NCBI GenBank assembly: GCA_028706295.1
Contig: JAQWBQ010000016.1
Coordinates: 1 to 63,447, forward strand
DNA: 63,447 bases
From: Bacteroidales bacterium
GTDB taxonomy: Bacteria; Bacteroidota; Bacteroidia; Bacteroidales; FEN-979
Direction of reading: 5' to 3'
The notes under the pieces were generated by a model, which worked only from the letters and a program-made list of their open reading frames with translations, made no database searches and had not been told where the DNA came from. Below, piece by piece: positions 10,248 to 21,900 of the stretch (position 1 is the stretch's first letter; each line of letters begins with the position of its first letter). Both the position numbers and the translations under genes were made by a program.

Positions 10248-10296
10248 CATTCTGTGCAAGAAATGTTGTGCGAAGATTATAAAAAATCCCTTGACC

Positions 10297-12741
10297 ATGA
10301 CCGACCGTATTCAACGATTGAGAGAAAAAAGCCTGAATGCTGTGAACTGTATTTCGGCGGAACGTGCGATGCTGATCACAGAATTCTATGAGACCGGCAT
10401 TGACCGTGAAGTCTCAGTTCCGGTCATGCGCGCACTCAGCCTGAATTACTTTCTCACTCATAAAAAGTTATGCTTCAACGAAGGTGAATTGATTGTCGGA
10501 GAGCGGGGCCCCGCTCCAAAAGCGTGTCCCACTTTTCCCGAGATCTGCGTTCATACACTGGAGGATTTGGATATTCTGAATACCCGGAAGAAAGTTTTTT
10601 TCAAAGTCGATTCCGAAACACGCAAACTTTATGAGGAGCGGATAATACCCTTCTGGACTGGCAGGAGCAACCGCGACCGGATCATGCGGACACTGCCCGG
10701 GGATTGGCTGGATTCCTATAAAGCGGGCATTTTCACCGAATTTCAGGAACAACGGGGTCCGGGTCATACCGTTGCCGGTGATAAAATTTACCATAAAGGT
10801 ATGCTTGACCTGATTGATGAAATCCATGAATCGTACCATCGAATCGATCTTTTAGAGGATCCTCATGCACTTGAGAAACAGGAGGAGCTTAAAGCTATGG
10901 AGATAGCCGCCAACGCCCTGATTATGTTTGCAAACCGTTATGCTGACTGGTTGCTGGAACTCTCTGAGGTTCTTCCTGACAGTAGTATTTCCGAATATGA
11001 AATGGCAGGTAATCCAATGCACTTTGGAGAGAGGTCCCGTAAAAAAACATCATCTGAATTTTCCCGACGCAAAAAAGAGCTCAGAAAGCTTGCTGGTATT
11101 TGCAGAAAAGTTCCTGCCAACGCCCCGACCACCTTTCACGAAGCGCTTCAATACTACTGGTTTGTACATCTGGGTGTGATTTCTGAATTGAATCCCTGGG
11201 ATTCGTTCAATCCCGGTCGTCTCGACCAACACCTTTTTCCCTTCTATCAACGGGAGATTGAAGCCGGAACCCTTACGTCTGAATCCGCAGTTGAACTACT
11301 TCAATCGTTCTGGATCAAATTCAACAACCATCCGGCTCCTCCGAAAGTGGGGGTGACAGCTCAGGAAAGCAATACCTATACTGATTTTTCACTAATCAAC
11401 CTGGGTGGCATCAAACCCGATGGTTCCGATGCGGTAAATGAACTCACCTACCTGATACTCGATGTAATTGAAGAAATGAGACTGTTGCAACCCAGTTCAA
11501 TGGTACAGATATCCAAAAAAAATCCGGATTCATTCATTCATCGGACCTTAAAAATTACCAAAACCGGGTTCGGCCAACCCTCTTTTTTCAACACCGATGC
11601 GATCGTTATGGAGTTGGTCAGGCAGGGAAAAGAGATAACCGATGCCCGGAAAGGGGGCGCCAGCGGGTGTGTCGAAGCCGGTGCATTCGGAACTGAAGCC
11701 TATATCCTGAGCGGCTATTTTAACTTGCCAAAGATCCTTGAGATCACTTTACATAATGGATTTGATCCCCGGACAGGAAAACAGATCGGACCTGAAACAG
11801 GTTCTCCCGAAGATTTTGCCACATTCCGTGATCTCGTCAATGCATTCCATCTTCAACTCAACCATTTCATCAACATCAAAATCAGGGGTAACAACCTGAT
11901 TGCACAAACTTTTGCCCATTATCTGCCTGTCCCCTTTCTCTCCCTGATCATTGATGATTGCATTGCAAATGCCACAGACTACAACGCGGGAGGGGCGCGA
12001 TATAATTCGACCTATATCCAGGGTGTCGGGCTGGGAAGTGTGACCGATTCGCTTACAGCCCTGAAGTTTCATGTCTATGAAAAAAAGACCATCAGCATGA
12101 AAGGAATGTTAAAAGCGCTTACCCGGAATTTCGAAGACTTTGATGATTTGCATGCATTGCTGCTGTTTGAGACTCCGAAATGGGGGAACGACGAAGATGA
12201 GGCTGATGATCAAGCCAGGCTGGTGTTTGATCTCTTTTTTCAAAGCGTTGATAACCGGCCCAACGCTCTGGGGGGCAGGCACCGGATCAACATGCTTCCA
12301 ACCACCTGTCATGTTTATTTCGGAAGCGTTATTGGAGCCTTGCCCGATGGAAGAAAAGCAGGAATGCCACTTTCCGAAGGAATTTCACCGGTTCAGGGTG
12401 CCGACACCAAAGGTCCGACGGCGGTATTGAATTCAGCGGCAAAAATCGATCATATCCGGACCGGGGGAACCCTTTTAAACCAGAAATTTACACCTGACTT
12501 CTTTAATGACGAGACCGGAATTCGGAAAGTCTCCGCATTGATCCGATCCTATTTTAAAATGGATGGGCACCACATCCAATTCAACGTGGTGTCGGCTAAA
12601 ACATTACGCGACGCCCAGAAACACCCGGAAAAGTATCGTGATCTGATCGTCAGGGTCGCAGGCTACAGTGATTATTTCAATGATTTAGGCGAGGATCTAC
12701 AGAACGAAATTATCAGGCGCACCGAACAGGGTCAGGTATAA
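10297..12741 (+). CDS. hypD: trans-4-hydroxy-L-proline dehydratase (glycyl-radical enzyme)
   Basis: Removes water from trans-4-hydroxy-L-proline to give 1-pyrroline-5-carboxylate, which P5C reductase can convert to proline. ATG 10297 (MTDRIQRLREKSLNA) is preferred to the TTG at 10291. The sequence closely follows the HypD family as I remember it: ELIVGERGPAPKA, NNHPAPPKVGVTAQES, QPSSMVQISKKNPD, GGASGCVEAGAFGTEAY with the thiyl Cys458 and Glu460, and the glycyl-radical loop IVRVAGYSDYF with Gly789 near the C-terminus. At 814 aa it is about 25 residues longer than usual, the extra being a polar stretch near residues 222-255. The glycyl radical implies anaerobic function. Assignment within the family is by motif memory; other amino-acid or polyol dehydratases are less likely. 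Confidence 0.85.
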   Translation: MTDRIQRLREKSLNAVNCISAERAMLITEFYETGIDREVSVPVMRALSLNYFLTHKKLCFNEGELIVGERGPAPKACPTFPEICVHTLEDLDILNTRKKVFFKVDSETRKLYEERIIPFWTGRSNRDRIMRTLPGDWLDSYKAGIFTEFQEQRGPGHTVAGDKIYHKGMLDLIDEIHESYHRIDLLEDPHALEKQEELKAMEIAANALIMFANRYADWLLELSEVLPDSSISEYEMAGNPMHFGERSRKKTSSEFSRRKKELRKLAGICRKVPANAPTTFHEALQYYWFVHLGVISELNPWDSFNPGRLDQHLFPFYQREIEAGTLTSESAVELLQSFWIKFNNHPAPPKVGVTAQESNTYTDFSLINLGGIKPDGSDAVNELTYLILDVIEEMRLLQPSSMVQISKKNPDSFIHRTLKITKTGFGQPSFFNTDAIVMELVRQGKEITDARKGGASGCVEAGAFGTEAYILSGYFNLPKILEITLHNGFDPRTGKQIGPETGSPEDFATFRDLVNAFHLQLNHFINIKIRGNNLIAQTFAHYLPVPFLSLIIDDCIANATDYNAGGARYNSTYIQGVGLGSVTDSLTALKFHVYEKKTISMKGMLKALTRNFEDFDDLHALLLFETPKWGNDEDEADDQARLVFDLFFQSVDNRPNALGGRHRINMLPTTCHVYFGSVIGALPDGRKAGMPLSEGISPVQGADTKGPTAVLNSAAKIDHIRTGGTLLNQKFTPDFFNDETGIRKVSALIRSYFKMDGHHIQFNVVSAKTLRDAQKHPEKYRDLIVRVAGYSDYFNDLGEDLQNEIIRRTEQGQV

Positions 12742-12941
12742 ATTTATGGGTAGTTCTATATCGAATTGAACAGGAACTGCACAAAATAAAATCCCGCATT
12801 ACAATATTCAGCAACACATTGATGAGCATTCATTCATGTTCATCAAGATGCTATATGGTTATACTACAACTCTTTCCTGCTCCCGTTGCAGAAGTTCCAT
12901 GATACCACACCGGTCTTTTTGCAATAATTCCTGTATCCCTA

Positions 12942-13808
12942 TCAGGACTTCTCCTTCAGGGGAATAACACCGGCCATTTCACCCAGCACATTAACCAGAT
13001 CAGCGCCTGTGGGCACTACAATTTTGGCATTGTCTTTCAATGAAGTCTCCATGGCCTGTATTTTCCGAAGGATTTGTGCATTCCCGATAAAATATTTCTC
13101 AGCGGCCTCATTGACAAGCGCGATAGCCTGGGCCTCACCCTCTGCCTTTAAAATTGCTCCTTGCTTGATCCCTTCTGCCCTTCGAATTTCTGCACGTTTT
13201 TCACCATCGGCTTTGGTTTCCGCTGCCGTTGCGAAATCGACGGCAGCTATCTTTTCGTTCTCTGCCTTGACGATCTTGTTCATGGTCTCCTGAACATCCT
13301 TGGGAGGATCGATCTCCTTAAGCTCTGTTCGGATGATTTGGATCCCCCAGCTTTTTGTCTCTTCCAGTAATGTTGCATGCAATTCCTTGTTAATCTTTCC
13401 ACGCTCGCTGTTGGCCGATTTCAGCGTCATGGTACCAATAATGTTACGAAGTGTGGTCCTTGCCAGGTTCACAATCTGGTACTCAATGCTGTTGACATTG
13501 TACTGGGAATTCTTCACACTATCCTCATCATTGTTGATCTTGAAGTAAACCTGAGCATCCACCTTGGCATTCAGGTTGTCGTTGGTGATGATCTCCTGTG
13601 GTTCCGCGTTGATCATTTTTTCAGTAATATTCACCTGGTACATCTTTTCGATTCCCGGGATGATCCAGTGAAAGCCGGGTGAAGCAAACCTGCGGTATTT
13701 GCCCAAAAATTCAATAAGCCCCCGATGGGTGGGCCTGACGATTCTGACGCCGGCCAGAAACAGAAGAATAACAACCACAACAATGGTTGTAATGACTACA
13801 TTGCTCAT
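12942..13808 (-). CDS. SPFH/Band 7 membrane protein (stomatin-like)
   Basis: One N-terminal membrane helix (VVITTIVVVVILLFLAGV), then an SPFH domain starting RIVRPTHRGLIEFLGKYRR and a helical, alanine/glutamate-rich coiled coil with AEGEAQAIALVNEAAEKYF. 288 aa is normal for bacterial stomatins, which oligomerise at membranes and modulate proteases or channels. No NfeD-type partner lies beside it. The 200 bases between hypD and this gene hold no credible gene. Its role here is unknown. Confidence 0.88.
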   Translation of the reverse strand: MSNVVITTIVVVVILLFLAGVRIVRPTHRGLIEFLGKYRRFASPGFHWIIPGIEKMYQVNITEKMINAEPQEIITNDNLNAKVDAQVYFKINNDEDSVKNSQYNVNSIEYQIVNLARTTLRNIIGTMTLKSANSERGKINKELHATLLEETKSWGIQIIRTELKEIDPPKDVQETMNKIVKAENEKIAAVDFATAAETKADGEKRAEIRRAEGIKQGAILKAEGEAQAIALVNEAAEKYFIGNAQILRKIQAMETSLKDNAKIVVPTGADLVNVLGEMAGVIPLKEKS

Positions 13809-13911
13809 AGCGAATCTCTTTAAATTTATATTTCGGATATCTCAGACAAACTTAAGAAATAAATCAACTTTTCTTATTATTTTCGTTGACACTTTTAAAA
13901 CAAAAACGAAT

Positions 13912-15561
13912 ATGACAGTCCGTAATTCTTTAATGATGATGATCCTGTTAACCCTTTTCGTTGCAGGATGCCAGCCAAAAAGTGAAAAGACCGCCCTAAG
14001 TCCTCAGGATTCGCTGATGCTGGCGAAGGTGAATGATTTCGCAGTCGTTACTTTGACGACCGATCTGGGTAAATTGACAGAAAAAGAAAAGCAAATGATA
14101 CCACTGCTTATCGAAGTTGCCGATATTATTGACAATTTATACTGGTTACAGACTCTTGGAGATAAGACCGCTTTTCTCGATTCGATAAAAGACACGATTA
14201 CCCGTCAATTCGCAGAAATCAACTATGGTCCCTGGGAACGGCTGAATGGCAATAAACCTTTTGTAGAAGGGTACGGAGAAAAACCGGCCGGAGCAAACTT
14301 TTACCCTGCTGACATGACCAAAGAGGAATTCGAAAAATGGAATGATCCCAATAAAACCAGCCAGTACACGCTGATTCTCCGTGCCGATGACCGGTCTCTT
14401 AAAGCCGTTTGGTATCATGAAGCATATAAGGATCAGATTACCCGGGCAGCCGACCTGTTAAATAAAGCGGCAGGATTTGCAGAGGATGCCGGACTAAAAA
14501 AATACCTGGAACTTCGGGCCGAGGCCTTCCTGACCGATGATTATTTTGCCAGTGATATGGCCTGGATGGATATGAAAACCAATACGATTGATTTTGTTAT
14601 TGGTCCCATTGAAAATTATGAAGATGAGCTTTTCGGTTATAAAACTTCTTACGAAGGGGTTGTGTTAGCAAAAGACCAGGAATGGAGCAAGCGGCTCGCA
14701 AAATTCGCCTCCCTGCTTCCCGAATTACAAAAGAATCTACCGGTTGATCCCAAATATAAAAAGGAGAAGCCGGGAACCGATTCTGATCTCAACGCATATG
14801 ATGTGATTTACGTTACAGGACAAGCGAATAAAGGCAGCAAGACCATCGCGATCAACCTTCCGAATGATGAAAAAGTGCAGTTGGCGAAAGGATCGAGAAG
14901 GCTTCAATTGAAAAATGCCATGAAAGCCAAATTCGACAAGATCCTGTTGCCTATTTCGGAAGTGTTAATTGATTCGGGACAAAGAGCTAACATTAAATTT
15001 GATGCATTCTTCTCCAACGTTATGTTCCACGAAGTTGCCCACGGTTTGGGCATTAAAAATACCATTACCGGCAAAGGTAACGTGAGGGAAGCATTAAAAG
15101 AGAAGTATTCCTCATTTGAAGAAGCAAAGGCCGATATTCTTGGTTTATACATGACTACCAGACTGATTGAGATGGGTGAAATCAAAGATATTACGGTTGA
15201 AGACTGCTTTATTACATATATGGCGGGACTTTTCCGCTCGGTCCGTTTTGGCGCAGCAAGTGCGCATGGGAAAGCCAACATGATGTGCTATAACTATTTT
15301 GAAGATAAAGGAGCATTCGAACGCCTTCCCGAAGGTACTTACCGGGTGAACATGGATAAGATACGTACTGCAATGAATGAATGGGCAGCCAAGGTATTAA
15401 TGATTGAAGGAGACGGTGACTACCAGGGGGCTGTTACCTACCTGGATGCCAACGGAAAGATCAGGGAGTCACTTCAGGCAGATCTTGACCGGTTGAAAAC
15501 TGCACGGATCCCGGTTGATATCGTTTACGACCAGGGGCCAAAGGTTTTGGGATTGAATTAG
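13912..15561 (+). CDS. Lipoprotein zinc metallopeptidase, dipeptidyl-peptidase III (M49)-like
   Basis: ATG 13912 gives a lipoprotein signal (MTVRNSLMMMILLTLFVAGC, lipobox cysteine at residue 20); the open frame further upstream runs through the promoter region of the SPFH gene and is ignored. The zinc site is FHEVAHGLG (His373, Glu374, His377) followed by FEEAKADILGLY (third ligand Glu404 region), arranged like the HExxGH/EExxAD pair of M49 peptidases. The spacing between the two motifs (about 30 residues) is shorter than in eukaryotic DPP III and the first motif is the five-residue HExxH form, so placement in M49 is likely but not certain. It would act in the periplasm or on the outer-membrane surface. 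Confidence 0.7.
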   Translation: MTVRNSLMMMILLTLFVAGCQPKSEKTALSPQDSLMLAKVNDFAVVTLTTDLGKLTEKEKQMIPLLIEVADIIDNLYWLQTLGDKTAFLDSIKDTITRQFAEINYGPWERLNGNKPFVEGYGEKPAGANFYPADMTKEEFEKWNDPNKTSQYTLILRADDRSLKAVWYHEAYKDQITRAADLLNKAAGFAEDAGLKKYLELRAEAFLTDDYFASDMAWMDMKTNTIDFVIGPIENYEDELFGYKTSYEGVVLAKDQEWSKRLAKFASLLPELQKNLPVDPKYKKEKPGTDSDLNAYDVIYVTGQANKGSKTIAINLPNDEKVQLAKGSRRLQLKNAMKAKFDKILLPISEVLIDSGQRANIKFDAFFSNVMFHEVAHGLGIKNTITGKGNVREALKEKYSSFEEAKADILGLYMTTRLIEMGEIKDITVEDCFITYMAGLFRSVRFGAASAHGKANMMCYNYFEDKGAFERLPEGTYRVNMDKIRTAMNEWAAKVLMIEGDGDYQGAVTYLDANGKIRESLQADLDRLKTARIPVDIVYDQGPKVLGLN

Positions 15562-15587
15562 TCTCAAACACTTTTATTTCATGTTGG

Positions 15588-16634
15588 TCATGCCGGGTCC
15601 TGCATAAAAGGCCTCAGGAAAGAAAGTACGTTGGCAGCGAGGTAATCGGTATTGTATCCGCCTTCCATGATCACGAGAATTGGAATTTCAAGTTCGGTAA
15701 TCAGTATTTGTGATAATCTGGAGTACTCAGGTGAAGTCAGTTTGAAATCGCCCAACTGATCAAATTCAAAAGTATCAACCCCCAGAGAAACAATCAGATA
15801 ATCGACCCCGAATTTTTTAATATCCGTAACTGCACGCTGAAATACCGATTCGTATTCTTTATCGGTCGTTCCTGAAGGCAAAGGGTAATTAATGTTTTTT
15901 TCACTATTCTCTGCAACCGATCCCGTCAGATAAGGATAATTGTAATCGGGATCCCCATGAATAGAAACAAAAAGTATGTTCTCCTGGCGTTGTACAACAT
16001 CCTGGGTCCCGTTGCCATGATGAAAATCAATATCAAGAATTGCGACCTTTTTCTGACTAAATGTGGTAGCCGAACCAACGTCAATCAGATATCTTGCCGC
16101 AATAGCCGCATTGTTTAAAAAACAATATCCGCCTGAATAGTCGTACCCAGCATGATGACCCGGTGGTCTGCAAAGGGAGAACACCACTGCATCTCCATTC
16201 AAGAGATTTTGTGCTCCGGTCAGCGCGGTATAAGCTGAATGTCTTACAGCTTCCCAGGTACCCTTGACAATCATGGTGCAACTATCGGTCATGTAATAGC
16301 CGGCCTTCCCAACCGGACTTTTCCCGGGCGAATTTTGCCGGATACGGCCAAGGGCAAAGAATTCGGGCAAAACCCCTTCGCTCCATAATCCTGCTTCAAT
16401 CCAATCATCGTAAGCTGTTTCAAGGTATTTTATATACTCCTCAGAATGAACTTTAAGAAGGTGATCGATTGAGAATTCGACCGGACGAATCACCTCAATT
16501 CCAGGCAAATCCATGAGCGCTTCAAAAATCAGTTCAGCCCGGAATGGAGATTCCCCGTAATTTTCTATATGATTAGAAATAAATTCTTTGGGAGGGTCAT
16601 GCAGAATATGGTAGGGCGAATAAACAACTTTCAT
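15588..16634 (-). CDS. Histone-deacetylase-like amidohydrolase (acetylpolyamine amidohydrolase/AcuC type)
   Basis: Zinc-dependent removal of acetyl groups from acetyl-lysine or acetylpolyamines. ATG 16634 (MKVVYSPYHILHDPPKEF) is chosen; an upstream GTG at 16670 would overlap the preceding gene. Family motifs are RPPGHHAG (catalytic His pair), GYCFLNNAAIAARYL, the metal-binding DIDFHHGNGTQ, and a later GVDTFEFDQLGDFKLT with another metal ligand. The DPPKEF start is typical of the bacterial acetylpolyamine branch. It begins 13 bases after the stop of the ATPase-acetyltransferase fusion and must be in the same transcript, which makes an acetylation/deacetylation pair. The real substrate is unknown. 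Confidence 0.87.
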   Translation of the reverse strand: MKVVYSPYHILHDPPKEFISNHIENYGESPFRAELIFEALMDLPGIEVIRPVEFSIDHLLKVHSEEYIKYLETAYDDWIEAGLWSEGVLPEFFALGRIRQNSPGKSPVGKAGYYMTDSCTMIVKGTWEAVRHSAYTALTGAQNLLNGDAVVFSLCRPPGHHAGYDYSGGYCFLNNAAIAARYLIDVGSATTFSQKKVAILDIDFHHGNGTQDVVQRQENILFVSIHGDPDYNYPYLTGSVAENSEKNINYPLPSGTTDKEYESVFQRAVTDIKKFGVDYLIVSLGVDTFEFDQLGDFKLTSPEYSRLSQILITELEIPILVIMEGGYNTDYLAANVLSFLRPFMQDPA

Positions 16635-16647
16635 AAATGATCCTGAA

Positions 16648-18141
16648 TTAATCGATAATGTTGGGGTCACGCTCCCGTATATAGTTCATCAGTTCTTTTG
16701 CGATGTCGGTCACCAGTTGAATTTTACCATAATCAAGATCCACATTGTTAAGATACTGCAGGATGATAGCATCCCCGATTCTTGATTCCGGTAATATCCC
16801 TGCGAAGAAAAATCCTAATTTCTCCAACTCGGCCGTGTATTTTGCTGAGAGTGGATCTTTCAGTTTCAGAAACAGGTTGATGGCTGCCATTCCATTAAGA
16901 CAGTAGTGTCGTACCGACTTACGTATTTGCTTGATCAGGTCCTGACCAAATTCCATTACGAAAATTTCGGCACAGCCTTCCAGTTCGTTAGCACCATTGC
17001 TGATCACCGACTCCGCCCGGGTACAAACCAACTGTTCAGCAGTCGGCACCAGGTAGCGGTGATTGGCGCCAACATTACGGTACAACTTTTCAACCATTTC
17101 CTGATGGTGCGGCGGGACATAGAGATCGTAAACCAAAGGGGGTTCAAGGTACTTGAATGAAAGCAGGACACTAATCCGCTGTGTAGTATCTTCCGATATT
17201 CCCTTGAACTTCCAGGAAGCAGGGCTTGTTGCCAGCAATAATCCGCAATCGTTGATCTGAAATTTGATCATTGATTTCTGTGTAAATGGATGGTTGGTAA
17301 CTGCATAAGCATACATTCCCCTCAATTCCCGTTTTTTGGGAACAGTGAATAGATAATCAACCAACCTGTTCAGAGCGCCCTGTCCCCGGTATTCCACATT
17401 CACAAAAACGAAAGTAAGTTCCGCGATCACATCCTCGGGATATTGATACAGAAACGCGGAGTGGCCCATGAACGTCCCATCGGCAGTTACTGCTACAGCA
17501 GATATCATTTCATGCTTCCTGTTCATTTCGACCAATCGTTCCGGAAAATAGATATGATCATCAAAAAAAGTATAGCCGTGTGTTTTGTAGGCACACCGTG
17601 AAACCTCTATGGCTTCTTCCTCGGCTAATGCCCTGACCGTATAATCAATTTTTTCCTTAATGACAGCAGGTTCTTTATTCCCAGCCTGCTGATCGGTAAC
17701 GACACCCTTTTGCAGCTCATCGGGTAAAAATTTTATCATTACCGTCTCCTTGCCCTGAGTTCCCAGGTTATGGAATTCAAGATGATCCATCACATTCTGA
17801 ATCAGGTAAATACCTAAACCGGAAGTTGAAAGATCATCGAGATTCCCACTTACCTCATATTTTCTGATGCCCTCCGGGTTGAATGGGATACCCATTTCTT
17901 TAATGATGATCCTGATACCCCCTGCGATATGATCACAAATAATATCGAAGGTCGGATTCCCTTCATCATGGGTATGGATCATCACATTTGACACTGCTTC
18001 TTCAAGAGCAATATCAATCTTATTAAGTTCATCGCCTGTAAAGCCGATCATCTTGGCAATTTCCCTTACAAATTGCTGAACCAAATAGGAATATTCAAGC
18101 TTATTGGGAAATGTTAACTTAATGCTGTCGCCTTGTACCAT
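16648..18141 (-). CDS. RsbW-type ATPase fused to GNAT acetyltransferase
   Basis: Residues 1-140 form a GHKL/HATPase_c domain of the anti-sigma serine-kinase type: N-box ALEEAVSN (Glu47/Glu48, Asn52), G1-like EMGIPFNP (84-89, with Glu where Asp is common) and G2 SGLGIYLI (107-114). After a short linker (about 145-165) comes a GNAT fold with VFVNVEYRGQGALNRLVDYLF, whose RGQGAL loop (252-257) would bind acetyl-CoA. The last 160 residues look like a second, more degenerate GNAT-like half (ending near GFFFAGILPESRIGDAIILQYL). No membrane segment is seen. The downstream deacetylase and the divergent STAS gene suggest a partner-switching pathway that controls acetylation. The domains are seen; the pathway is inferred. 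Confidence 0.85.
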   Translation of the reverse strand: MVQGDSIKLTFPNKLEYSYLVQQFVREIAKMIGFTGDELNKIDIALEEAVSNVMIHTHDEGNPTFDIICDHIAGGIRIIIKEMGIPFNPEGIRKYEVSGNLDDLSTSGLGIYLIQNVMDHLEFHNLGTQGKETVMIKFLPDELQKGVVTDQQAGNKEPAVIKEKIDYTVRALAEEEAIEVSRCAYKTHGYTFFDDHIYFPERLVEMNRKHEMISAVAVTADGTFMGHSAFLYQYPEDVIAELTFVFVNVEYRGQGALNRLVDYLFTVPKKRELRGMYAYAVTNHPFTQKSMIKFQINDCGLLLATSPASWKFKGISEDTTQRISVLLSFKYLEPPLVYDLYVPPHHQEMVEKLYRNVGANHRYLVPTAEQLVCTRAESVISNGANELEGCAEIFVMEFGQDLIKQIRKSVRHYCLNGMAAINLFLKLKDPLSAKYTAELEKLGFFFAGILPESRIGDAIILQYLNNVDLDYGKIQLVTDIAKELMNYIRERDPNIID

Positions 18142-18306
18142 AATTTTTTGTATATAGGTTGTTACTGTATGGATAATAGAAAATCAGACAATAATCCATG
18201 TCGATAACCGGGCATGTAAATGTTTAAAAAACAAATAAAATTAGACAATAATTTCAAATTGGTTTCAGAATTTAGGATATCATTAAAGTTAAATCAAACA
18301 ATTTGT

Positions 18307-18314
18307 TATATTTG
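18307..18314 (+). promoter_or_regulatory. Bacteroidota -7 box (TATATTTG), likely start of the STAS transcript
   Basis: TATATTTG fits TAnnTTTG but lies 187 bases before the STAS ATG, implying a long leader. The 18142-18500 gap is AT-rich in its first half; its second half holds a short open stretch (18394-18489) that I do not call as a gene. Confidence 0.4.
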
Positions 18315-18500
18315 AACAACATAAATCAGCGGATAAACGGAGAATATCACAGCGAAGCACTTACTGAATATTCAAAGGGTTTGTTACAGAAAGGTGAATA
18401 AGAACTGGCATGAAATGGATCCGGACCGGTATTATGACACTTCTCTGGATGAAGCGCAACTTAGTAAAGAATATACAAAAAGTCACTAAATCATACAACC

Positions 18501-18821
18501 ATGTTAACCATTCAACACCAACCCGAGAATGACCTCCTGGTATTTTTGTTTTCAGGGAGGCTTGACACTGTTGCCAGTGGACCCATTGCAGAAGAAATCG
18601 GACGCAAGATTGATAAGATCAGGGAGGAAGCCGGGAACATCCCTTACAGGATTGTTTTCGATCTGAATGAGGTTGACTATATCTCATCATCTTTTATCAG
18701 GATATGTGTCAACACTGCAAAACAATCACAATTAAAGGGTTTCTCAATCATCCATTGTAAACCATTCCTGAAAAGCACATTCAAGATTTCGGGGCTCGAT
18801 GAAATACTTAATGTTTCATAG
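18501..18821 (+). CDS. STAS-domain protein, anti-sigma-factor antagonist type
   Basis: 106 aa consisting of one STAS domain: an N-terminal strand pair (LLVFLFSGRLDTVAS), a central VFDLNEVDYISSSFIRI and a C-terminal helix-strand ending KSTFKISGLDEIL. Ser62-64 lie where RsbV/SpoIIAA proteins carry the serine phosphorylated by an RsbW-type kinase. It is divergent from the ATPase-GNAT fusion, whose N-terminal domain is such a kinase. This protein is the natural partner candidate (inference). No sigma factor is adjacent. Confidence 0.85.
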   Translation: MLTIQHQPENDLLVFLFSGRLDTVASGPIAEEIGRKIDKIREEAGNIPYRIVFDLNEVDYISSSFIRICVNTAKQSQLKGFSIIHCKPFLKSTFKISGLDEILNVS

Positions 18822-18946
18822 ACCGACGACCAAAATCTGAATCAGGTTACTGTTAAACAGCCGGGGTTGTGTTATTAAACAGGAAAAGAGTTCCTGCGTT
18901 TAAGGTAACCCTGATCCTTCAAATCCCGGTAACAAAATGGCCGGTT

Positions 18947-21900
18947 TTATCCCCGTGGATCGCCTTTCAATGGCATTTTGGCCATTTTCCCGACTTCCAG
19001 GCTCGGGAATCCGAATTCCTCAACAATTCGCCCCTTGATAAGATACACGCCGTCGCCTCTGAACGGATACTCCGTCACTGCTTTTGGAAAATGTACCGTA
19101 TCGAAGAAGTGTCCGTTGACATCGATAAAAGTACCGAAATGCATCCATTCCTTCTTCACGGTCCTAACATACTTGATTGTGACAAGCAATCCCATCATCC
19201 TGCGTGTTTTACCAACATTTTCCGACATCTCATGAGCCAGGATATCTCCCCTGAATTTCGTTTCAAGGAGGTCGAAGTAGCTGTATGATACCGGGAACCC
19301 CAGCAATTCGATTTCATCGTACACATCTGCCAGCAGGTTCTGTTCAAGAACAGGGAGCTCATATCTGCGTTGTGGTAATTGACAAGTTACAATTGACAAT
19401 TGACAATTAGCGGGTATTTCGGAGGGTTCTGGTAAAAAATGTGAAGCCGGAACTGAGGCCTGAGGAGCGTCCATGGCAGAATGATTCAACTTCTTCAATG
19501 CACCAGGCTTTGCAATACCCTCCTGGTTCTGGCCCTTTCCGAGCAGCATGTGCGCTTCCCATAGCAAGGCGGCTTTTGGTTTCCCGGTGAATCTGAAAGC
19601 GCCCACCCGAATCAGAATGATCAATTGATCGAGGGTAACAGGCACCCTGGTGACAAAATCTTCAAGACTTCGGTAAGGGATTTCCCCGCTATTCTGTTGT
19701 TCATGATTTAGCTGCATCTCATCTCCTTTTCGCTGCCCCACAGTTCCAACTTTATACGCTCCAACCTCCAGCGCGTCTCCATTTATCATTTGCATGACGC
19801 CATTTGGCATTCGCAAATCGGCTATGCTTTTCCCCAATGCTGCTTCCAGTCCGGCCACATGAACGAAACCCAGGAATATATCCTTTCCCTGGATACCGGT
19901 CATGTATGTACTCCGGTTCACGCAAGGCGGGTGTAGGTCCGCTCCCGAAATCTTCGCTTCATTAAAGTAGACCCAGGAGGGGTAAAATCCTCCGAAATTA
20001 TTGATCACACCGGTAATGAATTCAAGTGGGAAATGGGCTTTCAGGTAAAGGCTCTGGTAACTTTCAACCGCGTAGGAGGCCGAATGGGCTTTGGAGAAAG
20101 AATAACCAGCAAATGATTCGATTTGCCTCCATACCTCTTTTGTCACTTCCTCGGGATAGCCGAACTGTCTGCAATTCTCAAAGAATTTATCGATAATCCG
20201 CTGCAACTCTTTCTTCGACCGGTACTTGCCGCTCATGGCACGTCGGATCACGTCGGCATCAGCAAGATCAAGGCCCGCAAAATGGTGGCAGATCTTAAGC
20301 ACATCCTCCTGGTACACCATAACCCCAAAGGTCTCTTTGAGTTGTTCTTCCATCACCGGGTGCAGGTATTTGAATTTTCCGGGATTATGAAAACGGTGAA
20401 TGTATTCCTTCATCATCCCTGACCGGGCCACTCCCGGCCTGATGATCGAGCTAGCGGCAACCAGGGTCCGATAGTTATCGCATCTCAGTTTTTTTAACAA
20501 TCCCCGCATAGCCGGGCTTTCAACATAGAAACATCCGATGGTCCTTGCACTTCTTAGTTGCTCCTTGACCAGTTCGTCCTCCCTGAACGATCTGACATTA
20601 TGTACATCAATGCTAAGCCCCTGGTTCTTTCTTATTAATGCTGCTGTCTCATAAATATGTCCGATACCCCGCTGGCTCAGTATATCCAGTTTTTCAAACC
20701 CGATGTCCTCTGCCACATACATGTCGAATTGTGTTGTCGGAAAGCCCTTGGGCGGAAGATCAAGCGCCGTGTAATTGGTGATGGGTTCTTCAGAGATCAG
20801 TACCCCGCCTGCATGAATACTGCGAAGGTTGGGAAAATCCGCCATCATTTCACCCAATTCACTGATTTTGCGAATTATATGATTCTTATGAATGGCCTCT
20901 TCAGGATATTTCAGGAATGCGTCAATTTCGACCTTGGGAAGGCCGTGTACCTTTCCCAACTCCCGGTAGATCGATTTATCGCGAAAGGTCGACATGGCGC
21001 CCAACAAGGAGGTATGTTCATGACCGTATCGTTTGAAAATGTAATCGATCACTTCGTTCCGCTCTTTCCATGAATAGTCGATGTCGAAATCGGGGGGTGA
21101 GGTTCTTTTGGGATTGATGAACCGTTCAAAATAGAGATCGAGTTCAATCGGATCAACGTCGGTGATCCTCAGGCAATATGCGACCATGCTGTTGGCCCCG
21201 CTTCCGCGTCCCACGTGATAAAAGCCGCGCGACATCGAATAACGGATAATGTCCCACGCTATAAGAAAATATGCAGCAAAACCCATTTTGTCTATTATAT
21301 CAAGTTCATGCCGGATCCTGCGCATCGCTTCCCCGTTTTTGTTTCCGTATCGATAGCTAACTCCATCGTGCGCAAGTTTTTCAAGCAGGATACGGTCATC
21401 ATAACGACTTCCCGTAAAGGTCTTTTTATTCTTACATGACTTGAAATCAAAATCGATATTACATGTTTCAATGATCCGGATTGTATTGGTGAGAATCTCG
21501 GGAAAATCCTTGCACAATTCTAGCAGTTCCGGCACCCTCAGCATAAACTCGTCGGTAGCTGCAACCTGGTGTGATTCCAGCCGGGTCAGCAATACATTGT
21601 GATCAACAGCCCTGAAATTACGGTGCAGCTCATACTCCTTTTCATTCCGAAAAGTAACCGGAGCCAATAGTACCATGCGGGGAACAAGGTCCCGGTGGCG
21701 TGAAAGCAACAACGGATTGAGTTCTGAAGGGCGGATGCCAACGAAAGTGAAAGGCGAAATAGCAAAATGGCTAAATGGCGAGATAATTGATTGATTTACA
21801 TTATTTTTCACTATTTCGCCATTTCGTTTTTCACTTTTCGTTTTTTCGATATTTGCCAGTGGCAATATCCAGTACACATTTCCCAATTGCTCTGGCACAT

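Follow-up and report, generated by a model that had tools for sequence, protein, structure and literature searches.

An RsbW-type HATPase domain fused to a GNAT acetyltransferase and paired with an HDAC-fold deacetylase in a Bacteroidales genome

In a 63,447-nucleotide contig of a Bacteroidales bacterium (JAQWBQ010000016.1, assembly GCA_028706295.1; the whole stretch is hereafter called the window), we identified an open reading frame (ORF) at positions 16648-18141 of the minus strand whose product joins an RsbW-type HATPase domain to a GNAT acetyltransferase domain and a further C-terminal domain, as established from Pfam matches, motifs and structural models. The next gene on the same strand (15588-16634) encodes an HDAC-fold deacetylase of the acetylpolyamine amidohydrolase type, and this fusion-deacetylase pair is conserved. 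We propose, at a probability of roughly 0.45, that the N-terminal RsbW-like domain controls the acetyltransferase activity of the fusion, and that the adjacent amidohydrolase would remove the acetyl groups that the fusion adds. The observed basis of this proposal comprises the domain order, the conserved pairing, the intact HATPase and HDAC motifs, purifying selection, and the partner-switching genes that adjoin the fusion in other branches of its family.

Domain architecture of the fusion protein

The N-terminal part of the fusion (residues 11-137; 17731-18111, minus strand) matched the RsbW/SpoIIAB-type domain HATPase_c_2 in Pfam with an E-value of 3.6e-20. Its nearest relatives among PDB sequences were RsbW and SpoIIAB, with RsbW structure 6m36 matched at E 5e-10 by PDB sequence and at E 7e-20 with a family profile. 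The domain carries an N-box (EEAVSN, with Glu48 and Asn52), a G1-like motif (KEMGIPFN) and a G2 motif (TSGLGIYL). Motif conservation was read by eye from alignments, here and for the STAS proteins below; the N-box Glu and Asn and the G2 glycines were kept in the window fusion and in all 12 other aligned close homologues. The adenine-binding Asp of G1 is replaced by Glu in the window clade (Glu82 in the window fusion), a conservative change by which the domain departs from RsbW, and its scores against the NCBIfam RsbW equivalogs stayed well below the cut-offs (PRK04069, 68.4 bits versus 145; TIGR01924, 62.9 versus 155).

The central part (residues ~167-306; 17224-17643, minus strand) matched Acetyltransf_1 in Pfam over residues 203-279 (E 2.1e-4; 22.0 bits, the cut-off being 20.7) and the GNAT structure 3d8p with a family profile (E 5e-5). 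The acetyl-CoA loop of GNAT enzymes follows the consensus R/Q-x-x-G-x-G/A. The corresponding loop of the fusion (within residues 247-262) reads RGQGAL, departing from this pattern in its final Leu, and the domain is assigned to GNAT by its Pfam gathering score, its fold and this loop with its one departure. An AlphaFold model of the whole fusion (predicted local distance difference test score, pLDDT, 84; predicted template modelling score, pTM, 0.74) retrieved RsbW and SpoIIAB as the best Foldseek matches and GNATs from E 7e-8.

The remaining residues, 308-497 (16648-17220 with the stop codon, minus strand), had no Pfam match and, modelled alone, formed a separate domain (pLDDT 88.2, pTM 0.84). 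The 50 Foldseek matches listed for this domain were GNATs, weakly matched, with a best E-value of 1e-3 and none below. It is probably a degenerate second GNAT, judging from the model, and we therefore describe the fusion as a HATPase followed by a tandem GNAT whose second unit is probable. An initial annotation, made from the sequence alone, had already proposed an RsbW-type HATPase with N-box, G1-like and G2 motifs fused to a GNAT with an acetyl-CoA loop; its coordinates, strands and domain assignments were confirmed, the loop is present apart from its last position, and the third domain is new to the description.

Conservation and selection of the fusion-deacetylase pair

We surveyed 100 genomes, the window's own among them, and added 45 further fusion loci by a genome-collection search; one candidate search scored at most three candidates per genome, and the loci come from draft or metagenome-assembled genomes. 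Family-wide counts cover 73 fusion ORFs in 71 loci (loci are numbered L, genomes G). Eight duplicate loci (L091-L093, L099, L113, L130, L132, L133) were dropped from these counts and L070 and L110, which hold no fusion ORF above 200 residues, were left out, while the near-identical pairs window/L031, L073/L074, L114/L123 and L115/L117 were kept; the family tree comprises 68 rows. At least one label is at odds with the relatives of its locus: the 99% identical L091 (SACF01000012.1) is labelled Alphaproteobacteria and groups with Bacteroidota, so that its label is probably wrong.

Among the other 99 genomes, four carry full-length copies of the fusion, at 99, 72, 69 and 67% identity, and the ratio of nonsynonymous to synonymous substitution rates (dN/dS) against the 99% copy is 0.03 (3 nonsynonymous and 30 synonymous changes). 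The fusion is therefore more than a chance joining; its architecture is real and unusual, and it is under strong purifying selection. In the same comparison the deacetylase gave 0.13, DnaE 0.15 and M49 0.16.

The deacetylase gene begins at an ATG at 16634, 13 bases past the fusion stop codon; were translation to start at the GTG listed at 16670, the two genes would overlap. Its product matched Hist_deacetyl (PF00850) at E 1e-65, in agreement with the HDAC-like amidohydrolase named initially, and its top PDB matches are acetylpolyamine amidohydrolases (3q9b at E 3e-76, 6phr and 9gkz, to 9e-72). His160/161, Asp203, His205, Asp287 and Tyr327 align with the solved enzymes, and it is by these closest solved relatives and catalytic residues that we place the protein among the acetylpolyamine amidohydrolases. 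An enzyme of this type acts on both acetylpolyamines and acetylated lysine (PMC11532494, available excerpt).

A deacetylase gene follows the fusion in 13 of the 15 window-clade loci, on a single contig in 12 and by inference across two contigs in one, where the rest of the L108 fusion lies together with the deacetylase on another contig of the same genome (L180). Of the 100 genomes, six have a close deacetylase (E no higher than 1e-200), and five of these six also have a close fusion. The pairing expected by the initial annotation thus holds in the window clade; it does not extend to the whole family, where it is seen in about 13 of 73 fusions.

The identity of the deacetylase invites a purely metabolic reading, in which the two enzymes acetylate and deacetylate a polyamine or other amine and the HATPase domain has been retained for structure alone and takes no part in regulation. 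Many of the Foldseek GNAT matches are likewise SpeG spermidine acetyltransferases, a weak point given that SpeG has many PDB entries, and we did not use these fold matches as proof of the GNAT substrate. Against such a reading, which we regard as improbable, stand the invariant HATPase motifs of the close homologues and the low dN/dS across the whole fusion.

Origin of the adjacent STAS gene

Divergent from the fusion, at 18501-18821 of the plus strand, lies a gene for a stand-alone STAS protein (PF01740, E 1.5e-8, with a match to SpoIIAA). Its reading frame is intact and Ser63 occupies the SpoIIAA phospho-site position; the initial annotation had noted serines at the phospho-site and proposed this protein as the third member of the system. 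If that were so, the neighbouring STAS protein would be a partner dedicated to the fusion, the three genes forming one module, an idea that its intact frame and serine favour.

The genomic distribution of this STAS family points elsewhere. We fetched all 18 strong relatives from outside the fusion loci (E no higher than 7e-27) together with the four top matches of a second search, and in 21 of these 22 loci, mostly in genomes without a close fusion, a gene for an acylating acetaldehyde dehydrogenase lies 14-32 bases upstream (measured between matches). L032 and one of the STAS genes of L033 are preceded by such a gene in the same way, and relatives of the window STAS are present in many genomes without a close fusion. 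In the window, the fusion and deacetylase genes occupy the place of the dehydrogenase upstream of STAS, and a remnant of the dehydrogenase persists at 18337-18489 of the plus strand: its last 50 codons and stop, 54-56% identical over 50 residues (E about 1e-11), ending 11 bases before STAS. This remnant was the best match in a search of the own genome for the dehydrogenase, the sole other match being 23% identical. From these alignments the window STAS was probably once the second gene of a dehydrogenase-STAS pair and is now orphaned.

The substitution pattern between sibling genomes is in line with relaxed constraint. Against the 99% sibling, dN/dS was 0.73 for STAS and 0.52 for the dehydrogenase remnant. 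The STAS gene has only seven changes (5 nonsynonymous, 2 synonymous), a ratio that differs from that of the fusion (Fisher p = 0.0015) and from that of four genes pooled (p = 0.027), with no significant difference from the deacetylase, DnaE or M49 taken singly. Constraint on STAS is weakened, on these few changes.

Linkage within the clade is loose as well. STAS lies 360 bases from the fusion in the window, 267 in the sibling, ~1 kb in G025 and ~7 kb in G008; none was seen in the rest of the clade, and none of the 15 window-clade loci has STAS within 150 bp of the fusion. All six close homologues from outside the window's family with flanks of ~7-10 kb on either side (L094, L095, L097, L098, L101, L107) lack a nearby STAS gene. 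Two observations nevertheless favour the single module, and the second also speaks against a pure relic. In G008 and G009 the fusion-deacetylase locus lies within ~7 kb of a dehydrogenase-STAS pair, and G025, from another genus, carries an additional STAS gene (L033:11952-12263) that overlaps the deacetylase gene at its 3' end and has neither a dehydrogenase of its own nor a detectable remnant. This additional STAS is of the type of the window's genus (75% identity to that of G009, 71% to that of G008), which suggests that it was transferred together with the pair. Since STAS has been kept with the pair in two arrangements, it may still function at the locus. Overall, a three-gene system at the window locus is doubtful, and we consider a dedicated local partner rather unlikely; the role of third member given to this STAS by the initial annotation is weakened by its probable origin, its relaxed constraint and the six wide-flank homologues.

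Acetaldehyde dehydrogenase was considered as a general partner of the fusion and rejected: its proximity to the fusion is confined to the window's family, namely G008, G009, G025 and the window with its remnant, and in homologues outside that family it is on other contigs or was not found. STAS directly follows the acylating acetaldehyde dehydrogenase in the loci L156-L176 (for example L158:3919-5674). Elsewhere in the window, the product of an 816-residue ORF at 10291-12741 resembles a glycyl radical enzyme. No RNA elements were found across 12700-19300, and the Bacteroidota-type promoter pattern gave 4 matches in the window against 2.06 expected, none of them between the fusion and STAS.

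Diversification of the fusion family

Beyond the window clade the association with STAS is closer in several branches. A STAS gene lies within 150 bp of 26 of the 73 fusions, whereas among the other genes of these loci the figure is 32 of 626, and the 26 linked fusions fall in four parts of the tree (15, 7, 3 and 1). Fusion-STAS co-occurrence, as anticipated initially, is therefore absent as a conserved linkage in the window's own clade and present in several other branches. The initial annotation named as its refutation a predominance of related fusions lacking both neighbours; on that criterion its proposal fails for the deacetylase when the family is taken as a whole and for STAS in the window's clade, but not for STAS in several of the other branches.

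In the largest of these, a branch of 15 loci whose neighbouring genes were characterized by running Pfam and NCBIfam on representatives, every one of the 15 fusions is overlapped at its end by STAS and followed by an M20 deacylase-like gene, and a flavin reductase gene is present in 14. In a second branch the fusion lies amid a STAS or STAS-TCAD9 protein, RsbW, a receiver-SpoIIE protein and a further GNAT. In L072, L076 and L077, RsbW or other genes and then STAS stand directly upstream of the fusion, and in L111 (Anaerolineales, Chloroflexota) the operon runs RsbW, STAS, fusion, PAS histidine kinase and receiver-SpoIIE. Other fusions adjoin GH3 enzymes, or LuxC-AMP-binding and LuxE genes.

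Several of these neighbourhoods are elaborate. L114 (9947-16078), L123 and L116 contain genes for receiver-SpoIIE, RsbW, fusion, a STAS-TCAD9 kinase-like protein, a GNAT (Acetyltransf_18), RsbW and STAS. In L037 (3284-10254) and L131 (8571-15730), fusions with degraded HATPase motifs have as neighbours paired GH3 genes, an ATP-grasp gene of the RimK type and a gene for an MFS transporter; such fusions are doubled in L128 and L131. At L120 (7261-9933), the gene next to the fusion encodes an 890-residue protein that combines LuxC with an AMP-binding domain, with a LuxE-type gene nearby in the group.

The N-box Asn is kept in 13/13 fusions of the window clade, 4/4 of the next-closest, where the N-box Glu is kept too, 3/3 of the L072 group and 3/3 of the Syntrophorhabdus group, in 8/15 of the TCAD/LuxE group, and in only 1/15 of the M20 branch and 0/10 of the GH3 branch; L111 has His. 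From these motifs, the fusions of the window's clade could plausibly have full kinase activity; in others it is unlikely, and STAS may act there by binding alone. A coordinated loss of the kinase motif and the STAS serine was considered and rejected, as each of the 34 STAS rows keeps a Ser or Thr, including those whose fusions have lost the N-box Asn.

By analogy with known nucleotide sensors, the HATPase domain could instead be an energy sensor only, its binding of ATP or ADP tuning the GNAT without any STAS partner. The nucleotide-site motifs are indeed kept in the close homologues, most of which have no nearby STAS, and in Bacillus the nucleotide sensor AcuB tunes the AcuA/AcuC pair (PMC13121692, PMC13039410, available excerpts). 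A sensor of this kind, which we judge unlikely, is at odds with the adjacency of STAS in four other regions of the family tree, some of them with a nucleotide site that seems degraded.

A broader view of the family is tentative: phosphorylation of the STAS serine would gate acetyl transfer in a widespread set of acetyltransferases, and a dedicated deacylase would have been recruited twice, once as an acetylpolyamine amidohydrolase and once as an M20 enzyme. These two deacylases belong to unrelated families, and each stands beside one branch of fusions.

Discussion

In the switch that we favour for the window, the RsbW-like domain would bind ATP or ADP together with an unphosphorylated STAS protein, and binding or release of STAS would open or close the GNAT domain. 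The state of STAS would be set by phosphorylation, by a SpoIIE-type phosphatase and by energy charge, and the deacetylase would reverse the acetylation done by the GNAT. The own genome encodes three other STAS proteins (contigs C149, C66 and C107), one of them behind a Cache-HAMP-SpoIIE-HATPase protein, and the partner is more likely to be encoded elsewhere, for example in the SpoIIE-HATPase/STAS pair on contig C149, than by the neighbour at 18501, which seems to be left over from a dehydrogenase-STAS operon. Acetylation may fall on a small amine, for instance a polyamine, or on a lysine residue in a metabolic enzyme, as deacetylases of this type are known to accept both.

Several points weigh against this reading. 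The binding, kinase and transferase activities of the fusion are predictions from sequence, and its GNAT domain scores barely above the Pfam cut-off. The deacetylase has Val108 where the Mycoplana enzyme has Glu106, which gives polyamine selectivity (PMC11532494, available excerpt), and Glu is found there in three relatives (L032-L034); Val108 is not decisive, however, because the promiscuous PsApaH has His at the equivalent position (same excerpt). Pairing is also incomplete: in G009, the sixth genome with a close deacetylase, the 143 bases left upstream contain no fusion sequence, the near twins L101 and L107 have no deacetylase in the genome at E 1e-20, and the next-closest homologues L103-L106 lack a close deacetylase and have only distant HDAC-fold genes. 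The N-box Asn is replaced by Asp in 14/15 fusions of the M20 branch and is absent from 10/10 of the GH3-linked branch, so kinase activity cannot be general. Finally, the STAS counts come from a profile built from STAS genes of the same loci, and the branches are not independent.

The fusion HATPase resembles the kinases of the Bacillus systems RsbW/RsbV and SpoIIAB/SpoIIAA, and stand-alone STAS and SpoIIE-type phosphatases adjoin several fusion branches. Partner switching is known chiefly from the control of sigma factors, and few of its outputs are enzymes. The fusion differs in that its kinase-like domain is joined to GNATs and, in the window clade, has Glu for the G1 Asp; no sigma factor turned up as its output, though no search was aimed at one. 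Closer in principle is SiaABCD of Pseudomonas, in which a phosphatase, a kinase and a STAS protein switch an enzyme rather than a sigma factor (PMC9239204, available excerpt); its kinase is separate and its enzyme is the diguanylate cyclase SiaD, whereas the kinase-like domain of the fusion is part of the enzyme. The AcuA/AcuB/AcuC operon of Bacillus likewise combines a GNAT, an HDAC-fold deacetylase and an adenine-nucleotide-binding regulator, the latter a CBS/ACT protein that acts on the deacetylase (excerpts of PMC13121692 and PMC13039410). In the window, by contrast, HATPase and GNAT are parts of one protein, and the deacetylase belongs to the acetylpolyamine amidohydrolase type. With the characterized amidohydrolases (3q9b, 6phr, 9gkz; "cluster 4" in the excerpt of PMC11532494), the window protein shares full-length similarity and aligned catalytic residues and L2-loop region, and it differs in its Val at the Glu106 position and in its pairing with the fusion.

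The fusion family is unusual, and our searches of the openly licensed literature found no description of a HATPase-GNAT fusion, which fits the initial view that no system of this layout had been described. If the proposed switch is correct, whether a metabolite or protein is acetylated would depend on an ATP- and phosphatase-driven switch, and the chemistries of phosphorylation and acetylation would be joined in a single device. The operons in Chloroflexota and Bacteroidota provide complete gene sets in which this idea can be tested directly.

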